Below, piece after piece: positions 781 to 62,850 of a DNA stretch of 64,000 bases. The stretch is taken from contig JAHLKC010000039.1 in NCBI GenBank assembly GCA_025449115.1, forward strand, positions 215,716 through 279,715, given 5' to 3'. Every line of letters begins with the position of its first letter. The first letter of the stretch is position 1. A model generated the notes under the pieces. It was not told the DNA's origin and made no database searches. It worked only from the letters and a program-made list of their open reading frames with translations. The stretch comes from Chytridium lagenaria. Lineage: Eukaryota > Chytridiomycota > Chytridiomycetes > Chytridiales > Chytridiaceae. The translations under genes and the position numbers were made by a program.

Positions 781-3700
781 ATGGAACGACGAAAATCCGT
801 CAAAAAGAAAACAACGGATAACCTCCACGTTTGGGGTGAAGATGCAGGTCTCATCCATCCCTACTTTCTCTACTTCCCACCCACCCTCGAAAAAATCTAC
901 CTGGAAGAGGTACGTCCCCCCCCACCGGCCATAGGCGCCATTCCACCCCTACTGACACAACCAAGTATCTGGGTCGAGATTTTTCGTACCCTCCTTGTCC
1001 GTAAAGTCCTGATCGTTGCCGTCATCTTCACGTTTGTTGGGGACGTGTATCAACATTATACCTATTTTCAAAGGGTTTGAGAAATGGCAGTTGTTGACGG
1101 TGGGACATTATGCGTTTGTGTTTATGTTGAGCTGTATTGGGGTTTTGGTGTTGATGAGGATGTCGTTGAAGGGGTGGAAGGAGAGTAGCGCAAACAGTGG
1201 GATTACGCTTGTGCCGGTACCCGCTTTCAATTGGAATTGCGGTGGCTATGTTGCAGGTGTTTAGGTATAAGCGTTTTAGACGATATTGATTTGCTTTGTT
1301 TTTGGTTGTTGGGGGGTTTAAACGTACTTCTTTTTCTATTTAGATATGAGTTTGTATTGCTTTTGACTCGCGAGAACGTGTCGATATCAACACCTCATCT
1401 TTACTTTTTGATGGTCTCTATTGGCGTCGGTATCATCATCAGGGTAAGTCAACCTGTTTCTATGTGATACACGCTTCCGCTTCCCCCAAAACAACACTCC
1501 TCTTTTAAAACTACCGCCTGTCTACGTAGTACCTCACCTCCGCGATCACCATGGCCATATTCAGCTTGATCATTCTAGCTCGAACTTTGTTCATGGTCTT
1601 TAGAGAACCCGACCCATCTTCCGCCATCCTCGACTTTTTCGGTCGAATCGCTCCAATCTTTTTCTCAGCCGGTAAAGACCAAAAACCACATCTCCTTTCA
1701 TCTAAAACTCCCCAAAGTCTTTTGCTTCATCGGCACCTACCACAACGACAAACTCTCTCGTCGCAATTTCGTCCGTGGCAAGCGCATCAAACTCGAAATC
1801 CTCCGTCTATCCAAACATCGAAAACTCGTCTCAAAACTCCTTCACCTCATGCTCCCAGCGGTACATCTACCCCACCCATTTCAATATTTTTGCTTATGTT
1901 TTCTAAAGAGCGTTATACCGAGACTTAAGGCTTTGGAGATGGATTTCTCGACGATTGTGGATGATATTGAACAAGGGTATTGCGTGTTTCTGGATTTATG
2001 TGATGGACGTGGGATCATGGATATACAGAGACGGATTCAAGTCATTAACATGAATTTTGGAAGGTTTGATGAGTTTTTGGAAAAAGTGGACGGAGTTTGA
2101 GAAAATCAAGGTTTCTTCTTTTTTTTCATTTCTTCTTTCCTTCTTCAATTTTTTTTTTTCATTTTCATTTCTTGTTCCTGTTCTTTTCTTGTTCTTTTTC
2201 TTGTTCTTTGTTTTTGAGCTTTTAATCTTTTTGATTCTTATTATTTTATTTTTTTGGCGTTGCTGCGCATATAGACTATATCTACAAACATCATTTTGCT
2301 GCTCCCTGTAAACGGAGACGCCGGAAAAGGCTGCAATCAGGGTCACTGAATTCGCGAATGACGTACGGAACGTATTTGGGATCAAACGTGCCAACATTGG
2401 ATAACGAGGAACAGGATGAAGTTAGAGACGACCCTTTGAAAGTCTCTTATAAAATGGGGATATCATTTGGGTTTATTGTTGCTGGTATGATCTGGTGTCG
2501 TTTCTGGTGCCAAAAGTCTTACATTCGCACATATCGTAATCTCCTTTTTTTCTTTCGTTTTATTCTTTTGAATTTAGGCATAGTTGGGAAACTCAAGTTT
2601 TGTTATGATGTGTTTGGGGATACGGTGAATACAGGGTTTGTTTTATGGGTGTTGGTGTGATTCTTGGAGGTTTGACGCTTTTTTTTTTTTTTTTTTTTTT
2701 TTTTTCATGGTGTCTACAGCAAGTCGGATGCAAAAAATTAAAGGCCATGATACGATTTGCACAAAACAAGTATACGACACGTTTCCAAATCCAACCTGTG
2801 AGTCCCCCTTTCTTATTCAACCCAAAAAAAAGACTTACATTCCACAGCATCCCAATGGCGCTCTCTTGGCCTCCACAACGTCAAAGGCAAAGGCTCCATG
2901 GAAGTCTACGCCCTTAACCTCCCACCACCCACAAACCGACCCAAGCTCCATCCACTCCTCTACCATGGCTTCCCAACACCTTAACCAAACCTCCCTCCTC
3001 CAACTCCTCGCCCAAAACCCTTTCCTCTCCGACACCGAACCCATCCACATCGTCGACATGGATCGATCCGCGTTTGTGGTATCCACTGGCGTGCCTGGAG
3101 CAGCTGGGAGAGATCAGCTGGCGTGCCTGGGAGCAGCTGGGAGAGATCAACCGGCGTGCCTGGGAGTAGCTGGGAGAGAATGACACCAGGCGCGTCTGGA
3201 TTTTTCGCACCCGGTGGATCGGTGTTGGGGTTGAAAGAGGAACCGTGTGATCCCATTGCGACGAATGTTAAATGTGGAAGCTCGTATATGGCGATATCGC
3301 CTATCCCCGTTGATCTAGTGGACGTTACCACGTCATCCATAGATATATGGGTTCTTCTCGATAAACTTAGATGCACGTTCAAAGACCCAGCGATTGAGTC
3401 TCATTTCAATCAATCGAGTGTTGTGGAAAACGCGTATAAAGGGTTCATCAGCGCGATATTCGGAAGCGGGTTTTTGTTCCTACTTGCTGGGTTGACGCTT
3501 TTGTATGAAGCGAGATATAGCCCTGAAGAATTTACTGAGAAAATTGGGGTTGTGATGGGGTTACCGCTTTCAGCGCTTATAGAGATGATGTTTTTGTTTA
3601 TGCATGCTGGGTTGTACGGGACCATCATTTACACAAAGGATAACGTTGAACGGACGCAATGTAGTCGACGACTCAGCATCTGCTACGTTCTCCGGGTTTT

Positions 3701-5075
3701 CAATATCACTGTCTTTACGCTCCTCTTTGTCATGTACTCTTTTTATGGAGGCGTTGGGATGGAGGGATCTGGACGGTCTTCGTTGGTCATGTTTATGATT
3801 ATTTATGTGCATCATGTTGAACCTGTTGAGGTTGTGTTTTGGGGGGAGGTTGTGGGGTTGGTTGGGTCTGTGGTTATGGCGGTAGGGGTTTCCAAGGCGA
3901 TGAAGGCGATGTCGTTGACGGATATGGTGGATATTACGGCTTGTGTTATTGCGTCGGGGTTGGGGAAGTATAGTCAGAGGGTGTTGATGAGGACAGAGTA
4001 TTTGATGGGGCAGGTGTTGGTGAGGAATGAGCAGGAGATAAAGAAAGGTTGGGAACGACTGTTTTCGTTTTTTTTTATCGTTTATGTGGGGGGGTTATTT
4101 TTGTGGCGGTGGATTCCGGGTTCTTTTTTTTTTTTTTTTTTTTTTTTGTAGTGTGTTTTGGAATTTTTGATTTTCTGATATGGGGTTTTGGTAGAGATGA
4201 TAAAGGCAGCTGGACTGCTTAAGGCCATTCTTCCTTCTCGCGTGATTAGGAGATGGCTTTCTGGGAATGGTAGTTTGTGTGATATTGTCGAGAGTTTTAA
4301 ACGTGAGTTGTGATTGCTCCGAAAGCATTTTAATTAACTTTACGTTGGGCAGATGTGACGGTTCTTTACCTGGACGTTGTGTCGTTTACTGTTTTATCTA
4401 GTAACATTTCTCCTACTCGCTTGATAGCAATACTGGTGAGTCGCGTTTATACTGCCCATTTTCCGCTCTTGTCGCTAAACCAGAATACTACCATTGTGTT
4501 CCAAGAACACTGTGTTTACCGAGTTTGACGAGATATGCCAACGATCCAAGGTCGAAAAGGTAAGCCTTCGTTAGTTCATGCCAATAAATACCTCCCAGGT
4601 TCTTCAAATCGGTGACGCCTTCATGGCCTCCATCCTGGAAGGCATGAGCACCCGAACCCCAGACCCAGATGCAATCCGTCGATCCGCCCAAACGGTCTGC
4701 TCCGTCTCCCTCGAGATCCAATCCGCCGTCCAACGCTTCACCTTCCCCGACATTGGTGCCTTTCAAATCCGTGTAGGCGTTCACAGCGGATCCGGGGTTG
4801 GGTTTGTGTCGGGAGGGGAGTCGATGATCAAGTATGAGCTTGTTGGAGAGGTTGCGGAGATTGTGGAACGCGTGCAGGAGGTTGCGGAACCGGGGATGGT
4901 GGTTATGACGGAGGCGACAAAGGCGTTGTTGGATTTGGTGAGGGTCAAGTGTGAGGTTATGGCGGGGAGGGTGGATGGGTTGGAGTTGTTTGTGTTAAAG
5001 GAGTGTCAGAAGCCAAAGGATGGAAGAAGTTTTATGACTAAGGAAAGCGTGAAGAGGAAGTTGAATCCTCATTAG
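781..5075 (+). CDS. Two-unit transmembrane class III nucleotide cyclase (adenylyl-cyclase-like)
   Basis: Predicted membrane enzyme making cAMP from ATP. Reading through introns gives: an N-terminal tail; a first cassette of about four to five TM segments (about 990-1640); a helix leading to LLHLMLPASVIPRLK (1830-1930); cyclase domain 1 (1930-2925: EKIKTI, YDVFGDTVNTASRMQ across an intron, VKGKGSMEVYAL); a repeat-bearing linker; a second TM cassette (about 3440-3910); and cyclase domain 2 (4195-5030: VTVLYLDVVSFT, QIGDAFMA, VGVHSG). This M-C-M-C plan is that of animal transmembrane adenylyl cyclases, whereas usual fungal CYR1 enzymes are peripheral LRR proteins. Domain 1 keeps the adenine-type Lys/Asp and catalytic Asn/Arg; domain 2 keeps the paired metal Asp but has lost the Asn (EVAEIVER). 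Single-base frameshifts occur near 1075, 1230, 2098, 2305, 2480 and 2640; the second half is clean. Start at 781 is the first plausible ATG. Confidence 0.8.
3091..3182 (+). repeat. Three tandem ~32-33 bp repeats in the cyclase linker
   Basis: Three direct copies begin at 3091, 3123 and 3156, each starting gtgcctggg(a)gcagctggga. Read in frame they give a VPGSSWERSTG-like 11-residue repeat between cyclase domain 1 and the second TM cassette. One copy is a base shorter than the others, which changes the frame between repeats. Confidence 0.8.
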
Positions 5076-5932
5076 TTGGTTTCTTCCTAAAGTATGTAAG
5101 GGTGCGACCTTTGCACCGGAATAAATCACCTTTTGGAAAGATACCTAGTTCACGGCCTTAAGGTCGGGCTTGTGAACTCTAGAAAAGTCTAAAGTACTTA
5201 AAAGGCTTTTTCCCTTTATTCCTTTTGTTAACTAAGCATGCTGTCTTTCCAGCTGTTGGGTTGGGTTAACCACCCTAGAACGCGCGCCAGTTTCTCCCCA
5301 CATTCAAAACTCGTTTGACTTCGACGCGACATTGCAAAAAAAAAAAAAAGGAAAGAAGAAGGATGTGGAATAGAAACTAGAAAGCAAACAAAGGACTCGA
5401 CTCCTTTATGAAGATAGGACCGTGTTGCTTAGACTTATGACCATTTTTGCCGTGTTCAAGGAGATGGTTTTGAATGAGGGTGCTTGCAGAAATTTAAACT
5501 CCGACAATTTGAAAAATGACCAGGGTCACCAAAAGGACAAGGGGCTAAAAAGAGGGATCAAGCGTCAAGTCGTCGGAGGCAGACAAAAGTGAAAGCCGCC
5601 CCCTTTTCAAAGACTCGTTTTGATCCGTGATGTGGGGTTTTTTGGAATCAACCCTTTTCGGGTTGTCTGGAAAAAGCACTGCTCCACTTTGGTGCAATAT
5701 TTTCTTGCAGCCTCCAACTTCAACGTCTCCCATCATCTCTGCGACTCAAGCACATTGCCGAGAGAACAAAGTGCTGCCTTCACAAATACTCACAAATAAC
5801 GTTGAAGGACATTAGCATCCAGCCGTAAATCCATCACTTTTCACATATTCTCGCCTTACATTCGTCCCAATTAAGCACACAGTGTCAGTTGATTCCGTCC
5901 GTCCTTCACTCGTCGCATTAAGCCCTCGGAAA
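5076..5932. other. Intergenic region between cyclase and WSC gene
   Basis: No recognised gene. It contains the palindrome at 5145-5181, an A-run near 5336-5349 and the presumed promoter of the WSC-domain gene. Nothing else stands out. Confidence 0.5.
5145..5181 (+). other. Imperfect palindrome downstream of the cyclase gene
   Basis: CTAGTTCAC at the left and GTGAACTCTAG at the right form an inverted repeat around an 18-nt centre, about 70 nt past the cyclase stop. It could be a 3'-UTR hairpin; no function is shown. Confidence 0.4.
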
Positions 5933-7918
5933 ATGCCTAAGCACAGGTTCTTTAAGCCTCTTTTCCTCCACTACATCGTCCTCCAGCAGGCCCTGCTTCT
6001 CACCCTCGTCTCTTCCCAATCCGTTCGCATCGTCTCCCAAGGCTGCTTCACGTTCACTCCCCCGCAAACCCCGCCCATATCCGTCCTCACCATCGAAGAC
6101 TGCGTTAGAGTCTGCACAGAAACTTCCATCACGGTCGACAATGGGACTGTCTTTGGGCTCGTCAATGCTTCCCCTCGTGCACATTGTTTCTGCGGGGAGG
6201 CGGTGGCGAGAAGTACACGAGCTGCACAGACTTGTGGGAGGTGTGCGTTTGCGACGGCGAGAATGGCTTGGATGTGTGGGAATGAGAGAGGGGGATCGGT
6301 GTATTTGTATTCGGGAATACCTGAAGAAACTGTGACGACGACAAGGTGGACGCTTGCACCAGGAACTGCGGTTGCGACTGTGTCAAGAGCATTAACATCT
6401 CAGGTGAGCAGCATCTTGTTCGAGATTATCAAGAGGTTTTGCCTACATTGGAAGAGGGATCGCTAATAAAAGTATTACTGATTAATCTAGGCGACTACTG
6501 CAGAGCCAACGCTGTTGGATGTAGAAAATGCTGTGATTCCGTTCACCCTTACTTTCCAAGCCGGTAATGCGAATCTTCCAACACCTACCGAAACAACAAC
6601 TACAACAACATCCGCATCCGCCCCTTCTCCCATTACTGCCAAAGACGTTGTCTCGCACCCAATGTTCTTTGTTGGAGTCGGGTTTTTAGCCTTTGCATCT
6701 ATATCTGCCTTCATTGCCATTTTCTTGGGCAAGTCGAGGCGGAAGAATAACCGCGCAAGTAAACTATTTAGGTCAACGCTATTTCCTGAGGGTGTGCATG
6801 ATGATTATGCGCATCGGAGGATCGGAGAGAGTGGCAAGGAAGAGGGTGCTGTGAACTGTGTTGAAGAACCGAGTTCTTCAGCTGTTTCGGTGTCGTCGGG
6901 TGCAGCTAGGACTTTATCGTCGTCGGCTTCGCTGTTGCAGGAAGACGGCGGGAGAGGGGAATCATTTAGGATTGCGGTCGTCGATCAAGCAGAGTCAATG
7001 CAGCCTTCAGTGGCTTCATTTGCTACTGATGTGGTTGGCGGCTCGTCAAGTAGGATACCACCTCCTGTACCGATGGGTGCGTCTGGTTACGTTGCTGCAC
7101 CTTCGAAAGCGATACCCTCTGAACGTATTCACGTGACACCTCCTGGACTTTTCGTCGATGAGTCACCGCCGAAACGCGTTGAGCCTCCAACGCGGACGGA
7201 AGAGATCCAATTTTTTGCTGCACGAGGATCTGCGGCAAAGAGTGCGATGACGCCAACTCTGCCTGCTGTTCCGCCCAAACAGGTGATGGAACGAGGATCA
7301 AGTCGGAGAAAGGAGGGTGAACGACCGAGTGTATCTGTGAAGCACGAAAGAGGGTCAAGCAGACGCAGGGATGAGGAGCGGACGCCATCGCCACCGCTTT
7401 TGAGGGATGCGGTGCCTGTGAGAAGTGATTCTAGGGGGATGACCACACCTAAAAGCGATGGGAGGGTTGGTGTGATGCATGGAGCTTGGACGACGGTGGA
7501 GGACGATGGAGTGGATAAGGGGAAATTGCGACGATTTGGGGATGATGCAGGGGTGAGGATGACACCTCCTTTGACGCCTTCGCCAACAAAAGAGGACAGA
7601 GTGCGGGTGTCGTCGATGGGGTCGAAGGGATTGGAAGAGCAGAGAGATGGAGTATGGAGGGTCAGGACGTTGGAGGGAATTGCTGGGAATGTGACGCCTA
7701 AACCAATAGAGCCACGAAGGCGAGGAGACAGTCTTGTATCAAGAAACAACGACAGAAATCGAACGCCAGAGTTTAGAGACTCACCTAATGACGCAAACAG
7801 ACAAAGTCGGAGGAGGGAAGATGTTGGATTCTTTGCGTCGGGGTTGAGGGCAGAGGATTTTGCGTTTTTTCGGGGTAGACACGAGGGGAAGGGAGGCAGA
7901 GGGGAGGGGTTATCCTAA
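5933..7918 (+). CDS. WSC-domain single-pass membrane protein
   Basis: The ATG at 5933 starts a signal peptide (MPKHRFFKPLFLHYIVLQQA, then a hydrophobic stretch). A WSC-like carbohydrate-binding domain of about 95 residues follows, with eight cysteines (QGCFTF, EDCVRVC, HCFCGEA, QTCGRCAF, WMCGNE) ending in VYLYSG. A clean intron at 6404-6490 joins SQ to ATTAEPT. Then come a Thr/Ser-rich stalk, one TM segment (FFVGVGFLAFASISAFIAIF, about 6663-6728) with a basic stop-transfer sequence, and a long Ser/Arg/Pro-rich cytosolic tail with repeated GSSRRK/RRDEER motifs. The plan resembles fungal Wsc-type wall sensors, but sensing is inferred. The stop at 7918 lies after a G-run; the next frame continues for 17 basic residues (to about 7971), so the true C-terminus may be longer. 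Confidence 0.75.
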
Positions 7919-49797: not shown

Positions 49798-50494
49798 ATG
49801 TCCGGCTGGGACGACGTCACCGTCATCAAGAAGAGGCCTGAGAGAGCCACCGTCCTTAAGAGCGAAAGCGAAATTAATGCTGCACGGAGGGCTGGTGTCT
49901 CCGTGTCCACAGAGAAGAAGGGGTTGCGAACAACAACGGACCTTCTTATGACCCTGGGAAGCAGGCTAAACTTGACAGAGAGACTGAGGTGAGCGATGTT
50001 ATATTTATCGGTGGGGTGAGGAAAGTGGGGTATGCGAGATGGTTGTTTGGAAAAGGGTCAAAGGGTATCTTGATAGAAGACGAATCTTAAGTGCTGGATA
50101 CAAAGACCTTTCACCAACATACGCTTACTGCTTCGCATTTGCTTCACGGATGTTGTGGGAATGCGGTCGTCGACAGTCTGTGTGGATGTGGTGGAGGAAG
50201 ATCTTGCTTATCCGACTGAGCACATCACACTGATATCCATCTTTTATTGAACAGGACTTCAAAGTCGAACGTCTCGGTCTCAGCGTCGGCAAGGCGATCC
50301 AGCAGGGTCGTCAAGCCAAGAATTTGACTCAGAAGGACCTAGCCACTAAGATTAATGAGAAGCAAACCGTCGTCAACGAATACGAGTCTGGAAAGGCTGC
50401 AAACCCGAACCAGCAGGTGCTTCAGAAGATGGAGAGGGTTCTTGGTATCAAGTTGAGGGGTCAGAACATTGGGTCGCCACTTGGATCCAAGTAA
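49798..50494 (+). CDS. MBF1: Multiprotein bridging factor 1 (MBF1)
   Basis: Starts [20 protein letters not shown] at 49798. Exon 1 ends [17 protein letters not shown] at 49988; intron 49989-50254; exon 2 encodes [60 protein letters not shown] and [16 protein letters not shown]. The N-terminal MBF1 domain and C-terminal Cro/C1-type helix-turn-helix are both present at normal length (about 150 residues). MBF1 bridges TBP and bZIP activators and acts at stalled ribosomes. A one-base shift near 49925 separates the N-terminus from [12 protein letters not shown]; in such a conserved gene it is most simply a sequencing indel. Confidence 0.9.
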
Positions 50495-51870: not shown

Positions 51871-52240
51871 CACAATGACCACCACCCCAAGAGCACAGCC
51901 AATTTCTCCTTCCTCCCACCCTCGCTGAACTTGAAGTCGGCACTATCGACATTTCTGAAATGTACCGTGTTGATACCAACACTCCTACAACACTACTCCC
52001 ACAACCTCATTCATCAGGCGACCGAACTTCCCGCACCATATCCATCCGCTTTCCCAGTCACAGCCTCAAATCTTCCAACAACCCTCAACAGATCCCAACC
52101 ACCACCTCATTCAACAGACAATAAACCCATCTCCCATCCGCTGTTCCCATCACACTCAAGTTCCACTCCCCCAACCCTCACCAGCTCTCCGTCCCCTCCT
52201 CGTCGATGGCATTCGAGCGCCTTTGAAATAAGAGACACCA
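51871..52240 (+). other. Possible coding stretch upstream of the receptor array
   Basis: The plus strand reads FLPPTLAELEVGTIDISEMY, then Ser/Pro/Thr-rich sequence in shifting frames (to TTTSFNRQ). It is compositionally protein-like but I do not recognise it and cannot set its ends. It leads directly into the first copy of the repeated unit edge at 52241. Confidence 0.25.
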
Positions 52241-52982
52241 TGACCGAACACACATACGAAGAAACATCAGACTTCTCACAACCTCCAACCCGTCTCCCTT
52301 CCACGTCCTCCTCGTTTCTCTTTTCCCTCTCAACCTCGCACTGCCGGGCGCCTGGGTAAAACTAATTTCACGAGTGGCTACTCAAGCAGAGGATCTCTTC
52401 CCTACCATGCTTCCAATGCTGGAACGCACCGTTTCTTCCGAATTACAATATCACGCTATCCTTTCCATTTGATCTCTCGCGGGATGTTGCATGCATGAGG
52501 CACTATAGCCTAATTCTCAAATATACCCCGTTCTCACTCAACCTCCCGTTTTCCATAGCTTGTTTCGCCTTCAATTTTCGGATAAAGAATAGTAACCAAC
52601 CCCACACATCATGCGGATACTCGTCAGTGAGAATCTACAAGTTGAGTCCAAATCCTGAATATTCGTCATTACAATTAATACAAAAAGTAAACCTCATTCA
52701 TTTTGTTTTAAACAATAATTAAGTGGTCCTCATGCCGAGATTCGCCATAACATATCACCTATTTTACTCCTTAAATACGATTGTAAATGGTTTTACGTCA
52801 ATGCGCATAGACACGAATTTTCTAACGTCAAGAAAATCTGTGTCTAATGTATGCGCATTAAGTTTACTTGTGTTGGAGCACAAAATGATAGAACTCTGGT
52901 TGGTATCACTCACTTTACCATCTTTTCTGCTTTAAAATTCGAAAGGGCGACAGTGTCAACATCATCCGTCTATATAAGAAGC

Positions 52983-55009
52983 ATGCTGCTGGTACTCATC
53001 ATCTCGATGGTGGCTGTTGCTACCGTGCGGGCTCAAGAGCCTTCAACTTGTGGGAGGAACCTAATCATCTCGATGGACTTTGATATCCTGAATAACGGTA
53101 CGCTAACCCTAACATCTTACTTCATTATGAAACTCATCTCCATTACAGACAGAGAAACCAGAGTTGTAGACTCTCGTTGCGAGTGCGCAAGCTTTTGCGA
53201 GTCTCTAAGCACTTGTTTGTGTAAGTTGATAAGCTGTATGCGAGACTCTTCTAAACATTCTTCTTTTCCCTCAGCTTTGCATATGCGAGCTCTGTTAGTA
53301 AGTACTTTGCGCTCTTGTTATCTATTATTGCTCTGTGAGCGTGAGTGTGTACGTGTGTTCTAACCCTCCTTTTTCTTTCAGGAAGGTGCTATATGTGAGT
53401 AGAGATTTCAATAGAAACGATTGTAAGCATAACACAATATACAGAAAGCGGATCACGCCAGAATCAAACTACATAACAATCTTCATGTCGGCTCCGAATA
53501 TTGAAATACCCGGCAATCTTAGGTCCGATATCAGCATTGCATGTGAGTGCCCGATACCGGCCTTTTATTTCATTGACAGCCATTGCCTTTTTCAAAGTTC
53601 ACGTTACCAGCTCGAAGCGAGAGTGTGTCTCGCGCTGCCAAAGCTTTATGAGTTGCAAATTCGTTACCATTCGGTTCTGATGGCTTTTTTTATATGTACG
53701 CAGGAAATACAGGCACACAAGGAAGGGTCAGTATTATGGCTGGAACTGTTCTAGCGCCTGAGGTTGCAATCCCTCTCCTTCAAACTCTGCCGCACCAGTG
53801 ACCTCCATTTCACCAGAAATTCAATTACCGCTACCTGCAAGTGAGTTGTTTTTTCTACCAGTTGTATTCTAGTGTTTGCGCTTTATTCTGATCTTCGTGG
53901 CATCCAATAATGTGTAGCCAGCGAACCGACGAAGACTGCCAACGCAATTCCCCTGGATTTCACGCCTTCAAGTTTTCTGCATCAAGCACCCTCCTTCCCA
54001 CAGACACTTTCTATCACCAACACCTATGAAGCAGAATCCGCTAGTCTTCACACCTTCTAACTCTGCTGCACCGCGAACTTCTATTTCACCAGACACTTCA
54101 AATGCCGCTACCTCCAATGTTGTATCCCCGGTCTAATTACTGGCGTCTTCTTTTGGAATAATTGTCATTCTTGGAGTCATTGCCGTCACTTTTCTATATC
54201 CGCGCCGTCGTCGTCACAATATCAATATGTCCCCAACGTCACCCAATTCCGAGAATGAGCCCACTTCAAGCTCGTCAAACCATCCTCCAACCGTTTTCCC
54301 AAAGATTCATGACATGGAGGCACCATCACTCATCCTACTTTACCAATCACAAATCTACGATCAGAATCGCTCCCCATACCTGACGACCCTCGCGACTCGA
54401 AATCCACCATTTTTTCCGGCTTGAACGCGATCCCAACGGCCAGCTCCTCTCGCATTGATAAGGATTACAGTGCGATCCCAACAGTGACGGATGTGAAAAC
54501 GAAAAGGTGGAGGAATTAACGCATTTGGGTTCTATCTCTTGATGGGACGCAAGGTTCGTCTCGTTACGATAAAGCGAATGAGGCTAGGATGGATCGCGTG
54601 ATTGCTCCAGCTCGTGGATCGAGTATGATGGTTGTGACGTCTGGAGCAGGGCAGAGGTCGAGGAGTAACGTCGCATCATGGTCTTGTGAGTATGTTGAAG
54701 ATTGGTTGTCTGAGAATGGGTATGCGCCGGTTGTTGTTGCAAAGTTTAGATGTAAGAGTTTGCTTTTTAGCGCATGTTATATTTTATTATTTTCTAATGG
54801 TTTTTTCATCAGCCCATCAAATTGACGGATATCAACTTCTTCTGCTTTCGTCGAGTCGGCTTCTTGAGATGGGAATTACTGTGGAGACCATGCGAGATAA
54901 TCTTCTTTACGCTGTTGAGCGACTACGTGTTCCTATTTGGCCTGGTATTGGAGTTTCAACCGCAGGAAGTATGACGTTTGCGAACGACGCCCCGCCGCAG
55001 TACTCGTGA
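52983..55009 (+). CDS. PAN/apple-like ectodomain - TM - SAM receptor, with in-frame stop
   Basis: Signal peptide MLLVLIISMVAVATVRAQ. Splicing two tiny exons (23 nt at 53275-53297 and a 13-nt exon near 53383) gives a Cys-rich module, CECASFCESLSTCFFAYASS then VRRCY, and a second, ECVSRCQSFMSCKFVTIRKY then GQYYGWNC, both PAN/apple-like in Cys spacing. A TGA at 53759-53761 lies in frame right after NCSSA; beyond it the frame continues into a Ser/Thr/Pro stalk, a TM region (LITGVFFWNNCHSW...), a proline-rich cytosolic tail and a SAM domain: SWSCEYVEDWLSENGYAPVV, an intron, then HQIDGYQLLLLSSSRLLEMG and ITVETMRDNLLYAVERLR, stop at 55007. SAM domains oligomerise or bind partners. Either the TGA is an error or the gene makes a soluble ectodomain. 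PAN assignment is by pattern only. Confidence 0.6.
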
Positions 55010-55740
55010 AAGTTATCGTTCTATTTTTTTCCGCCTTGGAGTAGAGCTTTAGATAGCGATGTTACGGTTTTCGTCTTTGATTTTGATTTGCATTTTCCTC
55101 ATGAGCCTGCTATCACTATCATTTTATATTTCTGTTTTTCCCCTTGCAATTGTTTTTGTTTTAGAGCCTTCCTTCGTTTATTTCCAAACTTTATTATTGC
55201 TGTCACAGCCCCGATTGGGCCATTTTCCTTCCGACGTTTTTGTTTGGCTTTGTCATTTCGGTTCAAATCGCGCTGTTAGTCGTGAACCGCTTTTAATACT
55301 TTTGTTGAATGCCTTTATCGTTATCTTACCAATCTCCTGTAAGCGGCCTCTTTGTATCATTAGACTACGCAACAGTAAAATTCTGTCGTTTAAAATACAC
55401 TTTGTTTGTTTCATTATTGAGTAACTGATTCTTCCGCAGCTTCTCTAACCAAACAGTATTGGCGGTAGAGGTTCGAAATGAAATTTCTTTTTCGCTTTGC
55501 GGCGACTCTTTGCTGACGTTGCGTTGCAGTGGCGTTTTGTCATTATTATGCACGCTTTCTGCGTCAATCACCTTTGACACCGCCAGCATATCTTATAGTT
55601 GCTCAGCCCTCAACTTTCTTCTGAGTTCAATTAAGTGTATTTTCTTGCATAGTGTTGAATATAATTGTGCTGTAAGTTTCACATTATTAAGTTTTTTCGG
55701 GATCCTTATAAATAAAAACTTCTGTAAATGCGAACATGCA

Positions 55741-56100
55741 ATGACCGGACACACAGACGAAGAAGCATTAAACCGTTCCACCAACCCCCAACCCGTCCCA
55801 CCTTCCACGTCCTCCTCGTTTCTCTTTTCCCTCTCAACCTCTCACTGCCGGGCGTATGGGTAAAAACCAATTTCACGAATGGCTACCCAAACAGAGGATC
55901 TCTTCCCTACCTTGCTCTCAATGCAGGAACGTTTGAGAGAGGAAAGTCGTTTGTTCCATGCAAAGTGGAACCCTTCCTTATCCTGTCGTCACCACTCAGA
56001 AAGAGGCGAATTAACGATAGTGTCGCTCTTTTTTGATCACGTTAGGGATCTTTGTCTTGGTCGTTGGTGGGGTAATGGGACCTATTCTTGCGTTGGTCAT
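55741..56100 (+). other. Second copy of the repeat-unit edge (possible gene remnant)
   Basis: Matches 52241-52480 and 60365-60680. Possible readings include FHVLLVSLFPLNLSLPGVWV and ATQTEDLFPTLLSMQERL. It looks like a piece of an exon carried along with each duplicated unit; I do not recognise a family. Confidence 0.35.
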
Positions 56101-56819
56101 TTTCAAGTACTAACCGTGCCTTTTCTTTCTTTATTAATTAGAATGTATTCTGTTTTTTTTTCGGTTTTGTTTGTTTTTGACCTGGTTGTTTTTTAGTTTT
56201 TTGAGTTTTCATTGTGAGTATTTCATTCATCCGATTCGTTCTCAGTTTGATTTTTTTGTTTTCTCTTTAAGTTACTTCCCATTCGAGCGTTAGAATTCTC
56301 TTTCTCTCTCACACTATCCGATATACTTTATCGTTTCTTCCGAAATACAATTTCACGCTATCTTTTCCATTTAATCTCTCGTGGGATGTTGCATGTATGA
56401 GGCTGTATAGCCTAATTCTCAAATATATCCCGTTTTCACTCAACCTCCCGTTTTCCATAGCTCGTTTCGCCTTAATTTTTTCGGATAAAGAATTGTAGCC
56501 CACCCCATACATCATGCGGATACTCGTCAGTGAATCTACAAGTTGAGTCCAAGTCCTGATTCGTCATTACAAAGACAAATAGTAAAACCTCGTCCATTTT
56601 GTTTTAAACAATAATCAAGTGGCCCTCATGCCGATAATGTCACCTATTTTTACTCCTGAAATACGATTGTCAATGGATGCGCGTCAAGGCGACGCGTCAA
56701 GAAAATCGGTGTCTGCCCGCATAAAGTTTATTTGTGTTGGAGCACAAAATGATGGACCGGTTGGTATCACTCACTTTAACATATTTTGTTTGTGCTCGGT
56801 TGTCTTCTTATTTGAGAGG

Positions 56820-59653
56820 ATGTCGTTGTCGAGCAGCGATTGCTCCGTCGTGTCATCGGCGTTTCCGTCGCTACGCATAAGTGCGACGGGATGCTGTGGG
56901 GTTCTGGAATTGGGTGTGATTCAACCTGGGCGTATCACATATCTGTAAGTTTATATCTGTTCCTCATCTTTTCGTCATTGGCAGCGAGATAATCATTGAA
57001 CCATTATGCGTTTTTACATCTTCATTTGTTGCAGGAATCTTTCCAATAACCAACTGACAGGAGCCATACCGCGGCAATTGGGCAATCTTAGTAATCTTCA
57101 AACGCTGTAGGTTCATCATCTATCCCTCATCCTTTCCTATTGGATGCGATCTCGTTTCTGAACCATCATGCCTCACTTACATCTTCATTTGTTGCAGATA
57201 TCTTTACAATAACCAACTGGCAGGATCCATACCGCCGCAATTGGGCAATCTTAATGAACTTCAGCTGCTGTAAGTTCATCATCTGTTCATCATCCCGTTC
57301 GTAATTGGATGCTCGATACCAATTTCTGAACCACCATGCTCATTTGCATCTTCGTTTGTTACAGATATCTTTACAATAACCAACTGGAAGGGACCATACC
57401 GTCAGAATTGGGCCAATCTTAATAATCTTGCAGGGTTGTAAGTTCATCATCTGTTCTTCATCATTCCGTAATTGTATGCTTGATACTCATTTCTGAACCA
57501 GCAATATGCTCATTAACATCTTCATTTGTTGCAGATCTCTTTCCAATAACCAGCTGACAGAAGCCATACCGTCACAATTGAGCAATCTTAATAAACTTCA
57601 GCTGCTGTAAGTTCATCATCTGTTCATTATCCTTTCGTAATTGGATGCTCGATATCATTTCTGAACCATCATGCTCATTTATATCTTCGTTTGTTGCAGA
57701 AATCTTGACAGTAACCAACTGACAGGAGCCATACCGCCGCAATTGGGGAATCTTAGTAGTCTTCAAGGGCTGTAAGTTCATTCATCTGTTCATCATCGTT
57801 CCATAAATGGGTGCTCGATACCTATTTCTGAGCCATCATGCCCATTAATATTTTCATTTGTTGCAGATATCTTTCCAATAACCAACTGGAAGGGACCATA
57901 CCCCCACAATTGGGCAATCTTAATAATCTTCGAGACCTGTAAGTCCATCATCTGTTCATCACCTTCCGTAATTGGATGCGATACCCATTTCTGTACCAGC
58001 ATGCTCATTAACATCTTCATTTGTTGCAGATATCTTTCCAATAACCAACTGACAGGAAGCAATGCCGCCACAATTGGATAGCCTTAGAATTCTTCAAGTG
58101 CTGTAAGTTCATCATCTGTTTATCATCCTTCCATATTTCGGAATCCCGATTATTATTTCTGAACCATCATGCTTATTTCATCTTCATTTGCAAACTTTTA
58201 ACGAATAATTATTCCCAAAAAACAGTTACCTCGAAAACAATTATCTTTCAGGCGCTGTCCCTGAATATGTTTCGAATCTATTTGCCAAAAGGTATGCATA
58301 TTTAAATCTATGTTTAGCCCTGAACCATGGAAAATGATTTCCCAGTTGAATCATTCCGATTTTTATTGATATGTTTTGTAGTTAAGATTTTCTGTCTTTC
58401 ACTCACCACATTTGCTCCTTTTTTGCGGTCCTAAACTCCCCGTATCATAAAGCAATCGACCTGTAACTAACTGACTTTGTCCTGACAGTATTGAAGGGAA
58501 TTGTTTTTCTGATATTCGTAATTCCGCGGCATATAGAAAGTAAGTTTATTTTGCTACCAGTTATATTCATATGTTCACGCTTTATACTGATTATTGTTGC
58601 ATGCATTAGTATAACCCAGCGATCTGAAGAAGTCTGCCAGCGCAATTCCCCTGGATTCACGCTTTCAAGTTCTTCCACCGTAACAACCGACACCTCCGCT
58701 AGTCTCACACCGTCAAACTCTGCCACACCAGGAACTTCCATTTCACAAGACACCTCAAATACCGCTACCTCCAATGTTGTATCCCCGGGTCTAATCACAG
58801 GCGTCGTTCTTGCAATAGTTGTCATTCTTGGAGTCATTGCCGTCACCTTCTATATCCACCGCCGTCGTCATCGTCACATATCTCGTCAAAATCATTCAAT
58901 TCCGAGAATGGCCCCACTCCAAGCTTGTCAAACCATCCTCCAGCTGTTCCCCCAAAGATTCATGAAACGGAGGCCACCGTCACTTCTCCTACTTTACCAA
59001 TCACAAATCTCCGATCAGAACCACTCCCCCCCACCTGACGACCCTCGCGACTCGAAATCTACCTTTTTTCCGGATTGAACGCGATCCCAACGGCCAGCTC
59101 CTCACGCATTGATAAAGACTACATGTGATCCCAGCAGTGACAGATGTGCAAAACGAAAAGGCGGAGGAATTAACGCATTTGGGTTCTATGACTCTTGATG
59201 GGAGCAAGGTTCGTCTCGTTACGATAAAGCGAATGAGGCTAGGATGGATCGCGTGATTGCTCCTCGTGGATCGAGTATGATGGTTGTGACGTCTGGAGCA
59301 GGGCAGAGGTCGAGGAGTAACGTCGCATCATGGTCTTGTGAGGATGTTGAAAATTGGTTGTCTGAGAATGGGTTGCGCTGGTTGTTGTTGAAAAGTTTAA
59401 ATGTAAGAGTTTTTTTTTTTCGCATGTTTATTTATTATTTTTCTAATGGTTTTTTCATCATCAAATTGACGGATATCAACTTCTTCTGCTTTCGTCGAGT
59501 CGACTTGTTGAGATGGGAATTACTGTGGAGACCATGCGAGATAATCTTCTTTACGCTGTTGAGCGACTACGAGTTCCCATGTCGCCTGGTATTGGAGTTT
59601 CAACCGCAGGAAGTATGACGTTTGCGAACGACGCCCCGCCGCAGTACTCGTGA
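56820..59653 (+). CDS. LRR ectodomain - TM - SAM receptor
   Basis: An N-terminal cap (SSSDCSVVSSAFPSLRISAT then GCCG) is followed by eight plant-type LRRs, one per exon: NLSNNQLTGAIPRQLGN, YLYNNQLAGSIPPQLGN, YLYNNQLEGTIPSELG, SLSNNQLTEAIPSQLSN, NLDSNQLTGAIPPQLGN, YLSNNQLEGTIPPQLGN, YLSNNQLTGS, YLENNYLSGAVPEYVSN. A C-terminal cap (NCFSDIRNSAAYRN, SEEVCQRNSPGF), a Ser/Thr stalk, one TM segment (GLITGVVLAIVVILGVIAVT), basic HRRRHRH, a proline-rich tail and a SAM domain (SWSCEDVENWLSENG) follow. No kinase is present. LRR exons 3 and 7 are 73 nt instead of 72, breaking frame. Inside the SAM domain the splice acceptor seen in the first receptor (catcag) is missing here through a 5-base deletion. 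No signal peptide is obvious at this start; a hydrophobic stretch (FNIFCLCSVVFLF) lies just upstream. Confidence 0.75.
56949..58102 (+). repeat. Array of seven LRR exon-plus-intron repeat units
   Basis: LRR exons at 57035-57106, 57198-57269, 57365-57437, 57535-57606, 57700-57771, 57867-57938 and 58030-58102 are near-copies. The introns between them are near-copies too, each beginning gtaagttcatcatctgtt and ending ttcatttgttgcag. Unit length is about 155-170 bp and every intron falls in the same codon phase, so units can be added or lost without breaking frame. Confidence 0.9.
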
Positions 59654-60364
59654 AAGTTTTCGTTCCTATTTTTTCGTCCTTGAGTAGATTTAGATAGCGA
59701 TGTTACGTTTTCGTCTTTGATTTTGATGCTTTTCCTCATGAGCCTGCTATCACTATCATTTTATATTCTTGATTTTTTTCTTCCTTAAATTTGTTTTTGT
59801 TTTAGCCTTCCTTCTTTTATTTCCAAACTTTTTATTGCTGTCACAGCTCCGATTGGGCTATTTTGCTTCACGACGTTTTCGTTTGGCTCTTTATTTCAGT
59901 TCAAATCGCGCTGTTAGTGCCTCCGCTTTTAATACTTTTGTTGAATGCTCTTATTTTATCTTACCAATCTCCTTGAAGCGGCCTCTTTGTATCATAGATC
60001 ACGCAACAGTAAAATTCTGTCGTTTAAAATACACTTTATTTGTTTCATTATTGAATTTACTGATTCTTCCACGGCTCTCTAACCAAACAGTATTGGCGGT
60101 TAGGTTCGAAATGAAGATTCTTTTTCGCTTTTGCGGCGACTCTTTGCTGACGTTGCGTTGCAGTGGTGTTTTCATTCTTATGCACGCTCTCCGCGTCAAT
60201 CACTTTGACACCACCAACATAACTTATAGTTGCTCAGCCCTCAACTTTCTTCTGAGTTCAATTAAGTTATTTTCTTTCATAGGGTTGAACATTGTGCTGT
60301 AAGTTCACATGTTCAAGTTTTTTTGGGATCCCTATTAATCAAAACTTCTGTAAATGCGAACATC

Positions 60365-61096
60365 CAATGACCAAACAGAGACCAAAGAAACCTCAGACAT
60401 TTCCGCTAACCTCCTAACCCTTTCTCCCTTCCACGTCCTCCTGAGTTTTTCTTCCCTCTCAACCTCGCACTGCCAGACACATGGGTAAAGGCTACTCAAA
60501 CAGAGGATCTCTTCCCTACCCTGCTTCCAATGCAGGAACGTTTGGGAGAGGAAAGCTGTGGTTTCCATGCAACGTGTAACCCTTCCTTACCCTGTTGTCA
60601 ACAGTCAGAAAGACGCGATCAACGATGGTGTCGCTAATTTTTGATCACAATGGGGATTGTTGTCTTCGCTTACCATCCAGGCTGCCCATCCTCCCTTTAC
60701 CCTCGAGAAGCACCACACCCACGGCTTCCACTTCGACCTCCTCCACTTCTGCGACTGACATCTTGGCCTCCTCGCCGGCCCTGGTCGTCCGTCAAAGCGG
60801 GCCAGACAAACCCCTTCCACTGCCTCTCTCAACCAAAAACCGATACTTGCCTTCTTCCTCTGCTCCGCCTCTCACCGCGATGCCAATATCAGGAGATCAA
60901 GCAATGGCCACCTCACCACTGCACCTGCAGTCGAGTTTAACTTGGACCAATTATTCCATAACCCCGACCGCGCCCCTGATGCAGTCCAATCAACCGTCGG
61001 GGAAATCCAATTCGTATCCCAACCACCACATCCACACCCCCATCCAAATCATCTGCGATTGCTGTCAAGACAAATAATCATGAGTCAGATACCCCC
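60365..61096 (+). other. Third unit edge, then uncertain coding upstream of the Cut8-like gene
   Basis: 60365-60660 aligns with the edges at 52241 and 55741. Past it, Ser/Thr/Pro-rich frames (TTPTASTSTSSTSATD, LPLPLSTKNRYLPSSSAPPL) may belong to the 5' part of the Cut8-like gene, but no single frame is continuous. Confidence 0.35.
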
Positions 61097-62450: not shown

Positions 62451-62744
62451 ATTCAGGGTTTAGCGTTGAGACTGTTTTGGAGGTTGAACGAAAGGAAGTA
62501 CGGTGGAATGTGGAGGAGGTTGTTGGGGTTTTGGAAAAGACGGAACGGATTGTGAAGGGGTGTAGATGGTTTTGGGAGGTTGCGAGTTTAGGGCGCTTGT
62601 GGAGGCTGGGGAGTCTGGGAGGGGGAAGGTTCTTGAGGAGGTTATAAGGGCCTGTGGGTTAGAAGGTTAGGTAGTTTTTCGTATATAAACCACAATAAAA
62701 TTGACGAGCGTATAATATATTGTCGAAAGAAAGCGCCTAACCCT

Positions 62745-62850
62745 AAGCGTCGCCTTCACGCGTGCTTTCACGCGCGCCTTCACGCGTGCTTTCACGCGCG
62801 CCTTCACGCGCGCCTTCACGCACGCCTTTACGCGCGCCTTCACGCGGGCC
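62745..62850 (+). repeat. GC-rich 10-11 bp tandem repeat
   Basis: About ten copies of a unit like gccttcacgcg or gctttcacgcg, contrasting sharply with the AT-rich surroundings. Confidence 0.9.

Follow-up and report, generated by a model that had tools for sequence, protein, structure and literature searches.

Can a receptor gene exchange the domain that it turns outward and keep the part that acts within the cell? This question is raised by two adjacent genes in a stretch of 64,000 nucleotides of the chytrid Chytridium lagenaria (the window), which forms the right end of contig JAHLKC010000039.1 (C39; C15, C70, C206 and similar labels denote other contigs of the same 41.9-Mb genome assembly). 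A sequence-only reading of the window had proposed a modular system in which the outer domain is changed and one inner output is kept. In our analysis, the window probably holds two tandem members of a single-pass surface receptor family, which evolves by birth and death and carries swappable ectodomains on a common SAM/PPxY output; unit 2 bears a leucine-rich repeat (LRR) ectodomain, and unit 1, a chimera with a PAN ectodomain, is probably nonfunctional.

The region 48-62 kb was aligned with the window, block borders being the edges of the BLAST matches. Two tandem units were recovered, unit 1 at 52240-56058 and unit 2 at 55741-60666, whose flanks, stalk, transmembrane (TM) segment, tail and SAM domain are common at 82-87% DNA identity. 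Block A (52240-52426) recurs at 55741-55931 (86.9%) and once more at 60367-60540 (77.6%), as the edge of a third unit. Block B opens both units (Table 1), and block C (53839-56058) corresponds to 58538-60666 with 85.1% identity (E 0). The intervening segments, 52926-53839 and 56787-58538, gave no match to each other in this comparison. Homologous flanks and TM-SAM halves around unrelated middles, as well as the third unit edge, had already been recognised from the letters alone, and the breakpoints read at that time lie a few bases off the BLAST edges, an agreement far beyond chance.

When the stalk-TM-SAM part of unit 1 was searched against the genome DNA, 12 matches were obtained, which correspond to the two window units and eight further copies, of which two were each matched in two pieces. 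The further copies lie on C206 (three direct, one inverted), at C39:2844-3985 (C39-left, the opposite end of the window's own contig), and at C15:15076, C70:193339 and C18:390318-391178. LRR DNA stands upstream of the shared half in 8 of the 10 copies (unit 2, the four C206 copies, C39-left, C15 and C18); the two copies without it are unit 1, with PAN/apple modules, and C70, with a small Cys-rich ectodomain. The same inner half is found with different ectodomains, and donor families are known for both swaps. The sequence-only reading had suggested looking for the TM-SAM half under other ectodomains, and the eight loci, with a third ectodomain type at C70, bear out that expectation. C39-left reads through as one LRR-TM-SAM protein, represented in nr by P0001 (485 aa). 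Two switches of ectodomain class away from LRR are enough on a tree of the shared half, in which unit 1 is placed with a support of 85/83 only and strong support is confined to one of seven inner branches; because of this we infer, by parsimony, that LRR was the earlier state of the family. The ratio of nonsynonymous to synonymous substitution rates (dN/dS) is 0.28-0.71 across 45 pairs; the shared half has therefore long been under constraint.

The ectodomain segment of unit 1 matches C166:57949-58817 on the minus strand at about 85% in the DNA search of the genome. The match lies inside a gene array, and its protein, P0005, has PAN domains, a Pro-rich stalk, a different TM and a different tail. 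P0005 scores 38.4 bits for PF00024 (cut-off 21.4), and four translated pieces of the unit 1 ectodomain match it; on their own, these pieces gave no Pfam PAN match over cut-off. The PAN/apple-like Cys modules proposed for this gene are supported through the homologue and not by the window pieces themselves. At the 3' side the joint of the swap falls in the Ser/Thr stalk, where a second stalk copy lies between the joint and the intron donor opening the shared block, and as assembled the cassette and the stalk are out of frame with each other. At the 5' side the junction of family flank and PAN signal-peptide exon recurs at C77:150822-151703, although the few bases at the seam are different, the likeness of C77 to unit 1 ending within the first intron. 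As this joint is repeated at C77, mis-assembly is unlikely.

Two further observations concern the contigs carrying these matches. Positions 3500-4700 of the stretch read from C77 (L040) hold a truncated chimera, in which the family 5' flank and PAN signal-peptide exon are followed by DNA without family likeness. Positions 2391-7603 of the C166 stretch (L039) hold the PAN-TM gene array, where three reading frames show a conserved, unrelated motif in the tail, T.[EK]QYL..GWT.EQ...VKPP; the tail of P0005, the C166 protein tested, received no Pfam family name. The array appears as a second receptor family with an output of its own.

The second swap is that of C70, whose ectodomain DNA matches C134 with 89% identity over 492 columns, and C31 and C60 with 80-81%. 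These relatives are small Cys-rich proteins that end, as judged by eye, like glycosylphosphatidylinositol-anchored ones. Family homology in C70 begins in the stalk, and the swap joints lie in the Ser/Thr stalk in both cases (unit 1 and C70). The C70 gene is open from signal peptide through TM, and the SAM domain in its public model, P0003, exceeds the Pfam cut-off. Assignment of the ectodomain to CFEM was rejected, as no CFEM Pfam match was obtained and six Cys were counted by eye against the eight expected, so that CFEM-like denotes a likeness only. The AlphaFold model of P0003, with a mean predicted local distance difference test score of 35.2, was set aside. Upstream of the chimera (L037), several near-identical inverted-repeat pieces resemble, by eye, miniature inverted-repeat transposable elements.

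The LRR ectodomain that had been read in the other gene is confirmed in unit 2, where 7.5 copies of a 167-bp exon-plus-intron unit at 56943-58190 contain seven LRR exon cores. Throughout the family the LRR exons sit in such a tandem repeat, with a period of about 165 bp and 2-7 units: two in C206a, three in C206r and C39-left, four in C206b and C206c, and seven in unit 2 and in C15 (listed there as eight, one out-of-step unit being excluded), C18 not being counted. The sequence of P0001 reaches 55.8 bits for LRR_1, and LRR and SAM are the only families over the Pfam cut-off in it. The profile search that had been advised for both ectodomains gave matches over the cut-off in relatives, in P0001 for LRR and in the homologue P0005 for PAN.

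The common half runs from a stalk rich in Ser and Thr through one putative TM helix and a basic, Pro/Ser-rich tail to SAM and a C-terminal [L/P]PxY. A single TM between ectodomain and SAM was read from hydropathy and by eye. SAM exceeded the Pfam cut-off in all 12 proteins or exon-joined pieces tested (P0001's sequence, P0003, P0004, two from C84, C102, C26, C89, C110, C106:101k, C90 and C18:307k). Among single-exon window pieces, 54638-55009 reached 19.8 bits, just under the cut-off of 20.5, and 54520-54825 and 59199-59618 gave no SAM match. The absence of a kinase, also part of the sequence-only reading, agrees with the Pfam result for P0001's sequence, in which no intracellular kinase or TIR domain passed the cut-off; no match to the WSC domain (PF01822) was found in P0001's sequence, P0003, P0005 or the C84 pieces.

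[L/P]PxY follows SAM in 22 of 26 loci, or in 16 of 20 with the recent clade counted once; C206b, C206c and C206r were excluded as near duplicates of C206a, and C110/C202 was counted once. The four loci without it are C106:86k, C15:397k, C26 and C102b, and strict PPxY is present in 16 of the 26. When the tails were shuffled 20,000 times, a mean of 0.37 loci and a maximum of 4 had the motif. PPxY binds WW domains, of which 24 exon matches were found in the genome; C29 and C2 each have three in succession, as in NEDD4/Rsp5 ligases. The genome also encodes, at C32, a Byr2/Ste11-like SAM protein (SAM 52 bits; Byr2 Ras-binding 21.8 bits, under the cut-off of 27).

Further SAM tails were collected through Pfam and protein searches, and 18 stretches were read for them. 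Diverged LRR-TM-SAM loci are found on C228, C106 (two), C15:395k, C40, C194, C89, C26 and C110 (= C202) and, by eye, on C8. The Pfam LRR cut-off is reached in six of the nine tested (C228, C40, C194, C15:395k, C26 and C110), C89, C106:84k and C106:101k remaining below it. With the eight DNA-level copies, these ten give about 18 LRR-TM-SAM loci in the genome, counted partly by eye. C18:307k, whose N-terminal piece has no Pfam match, hence stays outside this count. PAN-TM-SAM occurs as a diverged gene pair at C84, one gene scoring 29.2 bits for PAN_4 (cut-off 27) and 29.0 for SAM_1 (cut-off 23), the second 15.4 bits for PAN, under the cut-off of 21.4. Other Cys-rich ectodomains are present at C90 (two genes and a third partial match) and C102 (a weak match); no ectodomain class was assigned at C15:42k, C18:307k and the third SAM end at C84. 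SAM genes that are not receptors occur at C165 (a kinase) and C27. In the C165 gene (L060) the SAM is C-terminal to the protein kinase, and the intron that splits it sits, by eye, where the receptors have theirs.

Table 1. Features of the two receptor units in the window (positions in the 64,000-nucleotide stretch)
Feature	Position	Strand	Basis
Unit 1, 5' flank block A, common to all three unit edges	52240..52426	+	self-comparison
Unit 1, 5' flank block B	52430..52926	+	82.0% to 56332-56787; also at C15, C206, C77
Unit 1, swapped-in PAN/apple cassette: signal-peptide exon from ATG 52983, two PAN modules, the second disturbed	52946..53775	+	85.5% to C166:57949-58817(-)
Unit 1, extra Ser/Thr stalk copy at 3' joint	53777..53840	+	80% to 54053-54117, 83% to 58710-58774
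Unit 1, stalk, TM, Pro/Ser-rich tail, SAM; interrupted as assembled	53839..55009	+	self-comparison, translation
Unit 1, SAM exons, borders by eye	about 54676-54759 and 54812-55009	+	translation
Unit 1, 3' flank, which passes into the 5' edge of unit 2 (block A 55741-55931)	55010..56058	+	self-comparison
Unit 2, 5' flank block B	56332..56787	+	self-comparison
Unit 2, LRR ectodomain, made up of an N-cap exon (ATG placed by eye), seven exon+intron units with LRRs and a final LRR-like exon	56820..58290	+	
Unit 2, juxtamembrane cap exon, stalk, TM, tail, SAM; interrupted as assembled	58475..59653	+	self-comparison, translation
Unit 2, last SAM exon, ending ...APPQYS	about 59453-59653	+	
Unit 2, 3' flank with third unit edge (60367-60540)	59654..60666	+	self-comparison

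Outside the two units, the window holds an HTH_3 exon at 50234-50494 (52.3 bits, open as read), resembling MBF1, and, close to the contig end, a GC-rich tandem run of CACGCGCGCCTT-like units at 62740-62850. Rfam gave no match within the window at gathering scores.

The integrity of the copies was evaluated by comparing their TM-SAM coding part with C39-left. Both window units are interrupted as assembled, which had gone unremarked in the sequence-only reading. Frame-breaking indels number 12 in unit 1, 7 in unit 2, 5 in C206a, 0 in C206b, 4 in C206c, 12 in C206r, 3 in C15, 6 in C70 and 10 in C18, the stalk being poorly aligned, with five of the six in C70 and several of those in unit 1 and C206r as alignment effects. 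C110 and C202, which represent one place twice, show 15 one-base gaps but no mismatch over 3,048 columns, and C32/C218 have 7 mismatches with 6 gaps over 3,185 columns; one-base indels are therefore untrustworthy in this assembly, and frameshifts were rejected as proof of pseudogenes. In a codon-threaded comparison, no in-frame stop was met in any of the ten copies. A TAA interrupts the raw frame of unit 1 where the TM helix begins; PAN module 2 of this unit is shorter by a net 8 bp and, by eye, has lost a Cys and carries an in-frame TGA. P0006, the public nr model of unit 1, has SAM and skips the PAN modules and TM. Substitutions are a safer guide than indels in this assembly. Private codon changes, compared with C18 excluded, are 10 nonsynonymous to 1 synonymous in unit 1 as against 73:53 pooled over eight other copies (one-sided p 0.028), and 2:2 in unit 2. 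From these features of its sequence, unit 1 has probably, though not certainly, lost its function.

Several points weigh against a receptor family with a decayed unit 1. Frame-breaking indels occur in 8 of the 9 copies compared with C39-left, all but C206b, which may mean that many recent members are dead or that the assembly is of low quality. As assembled, C70 switches frame between TM and SAM, and P0003 is without TM. Pfam PAN_1, searched against the genome, matched four exons, all outside the window and C84. The [L/P]PxY pattern was defined after the tails had been looked at. The SAM intron position, considered as proof of a common origin of the deep members, was rejected, since non-receptor C165 and C27 have the same intron. 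As to the decay of unit 1, its threaded TM-SAM half has no stop in 325 codons, and its 10:1 ratio comprises 11 changes in all and is not different from neutral (p 0.48).

A serious though tentative alternative is that the locus represents birth-and-death debris, in which tandem LRR-TM-SAM genes recombine by accident with other tandem surface genes, the chimeras are dead and the exchange has no adaptive meaning. Unit 1, whose own branch gives no indication of constraint and whose PAN module 2 is damaged, is consistent with this, as are the interruption of most copies, the frame switch of C70 after TM and the truncated chimera fragment at C77. It is less readily reconciled with a C70 gene that is open through TM and stands in the public gene set, though without TM, with the absence of nonsense codons from the threaded half of unit 1, or with the persistence of PAN-TM-SAM as a diverged gene pair at C84, so that non-LRR combinations have lasted.

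We regard it as unlikely that the family, instead of responding to other organisms, senses the cell wall or mechanical stress in the manner of Wsc/Mid proteins, with an ectodomain that would bind wall carbohydrate, a Ser/Thr stalk that would act as a spring and a tail that would signal. A C-terminal SAM is not known as a Wsc feature, most members of the family have LRRs, no WSC match was obtained, and the repertoire is large and variable. The plan is nevertheless the same, with a Cys-rich or PAN domain, a Ser/Thr stalk, one TM and a tail, and the Wsc1 ectodomain has a PAN/apple fold (PMC9024836). Somewhat more doubtful are proteins for zoospore adhesion or for host or substrate recognition, with ectodomains under pressure to change. 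Variation in LRR number points in this direction, as does the closeness of five of the recent family's placements to the ends of contigs (combined p 4.7e-4, with C206, wholly in a 48.8-kb contig, excluded), but contigs also break at repeats, which biases end positions. A subtelomeric location was rejected, as no telomere repeat was found in the stretches checked and contigs break at repeats. A chimeric contig is very improbable: the base errors of the assembly and the position of the units about 3-12 kb from the contig end would suit it, but both sides of the swapped segment are of the same family on one contig, and with the 5' joint of unit 1 recurring at C77 and an independent third ectodomain at C70, neither chimerism nor a want of other variants, the objections foreseen in the sequence-only reading, was found.

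For the receptor family with swappable ectodomains, we infer that exchange occurs by rare ectopic recombination in tandem arrays, and not by a programmed switch; the low-complexity Ser/Thr stalk would be the place of joining. The proposed modular system stands in so far as further ectodomains occur elsewhere on the same inner part (at C70 and, deeper, PAN at C84 and Cys-rich domains at C90 and C102). It is not supported for the window pair as a working switch, unit 1 being probably decayed and nothing indicating programmed switching. In a working member, the outward LRR, PAN or Cys-rich domains may bind a putative ligand, bringing receptors together. The clustered SAM domains, alone or with a SAM protein such as the Byr2/Ste11-like one, could then relay a signal, and through the PPxY tail a WW protein, for instance a ligase of the NEDD4/Rsp5 type, might be recruited to serve in turnover or signalling.

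A bolder proposal, to which we attach little probability, is that these genes form a chytrid surface recognition repertoire, in which interchangeable LRR, PAN, small Cys-rich and other ectodomains are joined through recombination in the stalk to a kinase- and TIR-free SAM/PPxY output, for non-self, prey or mate recognition. If true, it would be a fungal counterpart of the pattern-recognition receptors of plants and animals, in a kingdom reported to be without LRR receptors. The genome keeps recent chimeras with identifiable donor family and recipient, which opens two questions to direct tests, namely whether early-diverging fungi have receptor-based recognition and by what route receptors trade ectodomains as they evolve. 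SAM clustering together with a WW ligand offers a concrete guess for a kinase-free output. In nr protein searches, by a method that needs shared 5-residue words, only C. lagenaria was among the matches listed, which does not establish that other species are without relatives; in a literature search by titles or abstract openings, with subscription literature mostly outside its scope, no paper among those listed seemed to describe TM-SAM receptors in chytrids.

Among known systems, plant LRR receptor kinases stand nearest in the ectodomain, Wsc sensors in overall plan and Eph receptors in the C-terminal SAM. The solved structures nearest to P0001 are plant LRR receptor kinases (GSO1, FLS2, PEPR1 and others), and those nearest to the SAM sequence are animal SAMHD1, SAMD12, aveugle and SARM1. 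With plant LRR receptor-like kinases and proteins the family shares the plant-type LRR consensus and one TM, whereas it has SAM and PPxY in place of a kinase and a short ectodomain of 2-7 LRR exons, one repeat per exon. In the yeast Opy2-Ste50-Ste11 system, a membrane protein is coupled to the SAM-SAM contacts of a mitogen-activated protein kinase kinase kinase and Opy2 itself is not known to have a SAM, whereas the chytrid SAM lies in the membrane protein itself. Eph receptors have a C-terminal SAM and then a short linear motif. Acanthamoeba has seven tyrosine kinases with TM, six of them with SAM (PMC4053784). Unlike both, the chytrid family is without a kinase, and its motif is PPxY-like and not a PDZ ligand.

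In holozoan receptor tyrosine kinases the extracellular domains vary and the inner part is related, a pattern read as extracellular domain shuffling (PMC8662651). Their constant part is the kinase, whereas that of the chytrid family is SAM, with recent joints and donor families visible. Wsc sensors resemble the family in an ectodomain that is Cys-rich or has the PAN fold, and in a Ser/Thr stalk, a single TM and a short tail (PMC9024836), and differ from it in the SAM output, the LRR ectodomains, the tandem arrays and the missing WSC match. Soanes and Talbot (2010), who surveyed 101 eukaryotes including 49 fungi, concluded that LRR receptors are almost absent from Fungi; they were left with five LRR+TM proteins in 4 of the 49 fungal genomes, one a chytrid, and no other functional domain was predicted in these proteins (PMC2939053). 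Against these, a single chytrid genome here holds about 18 loci, counted partly by eye, in which LRR and TM are combined with SAM.

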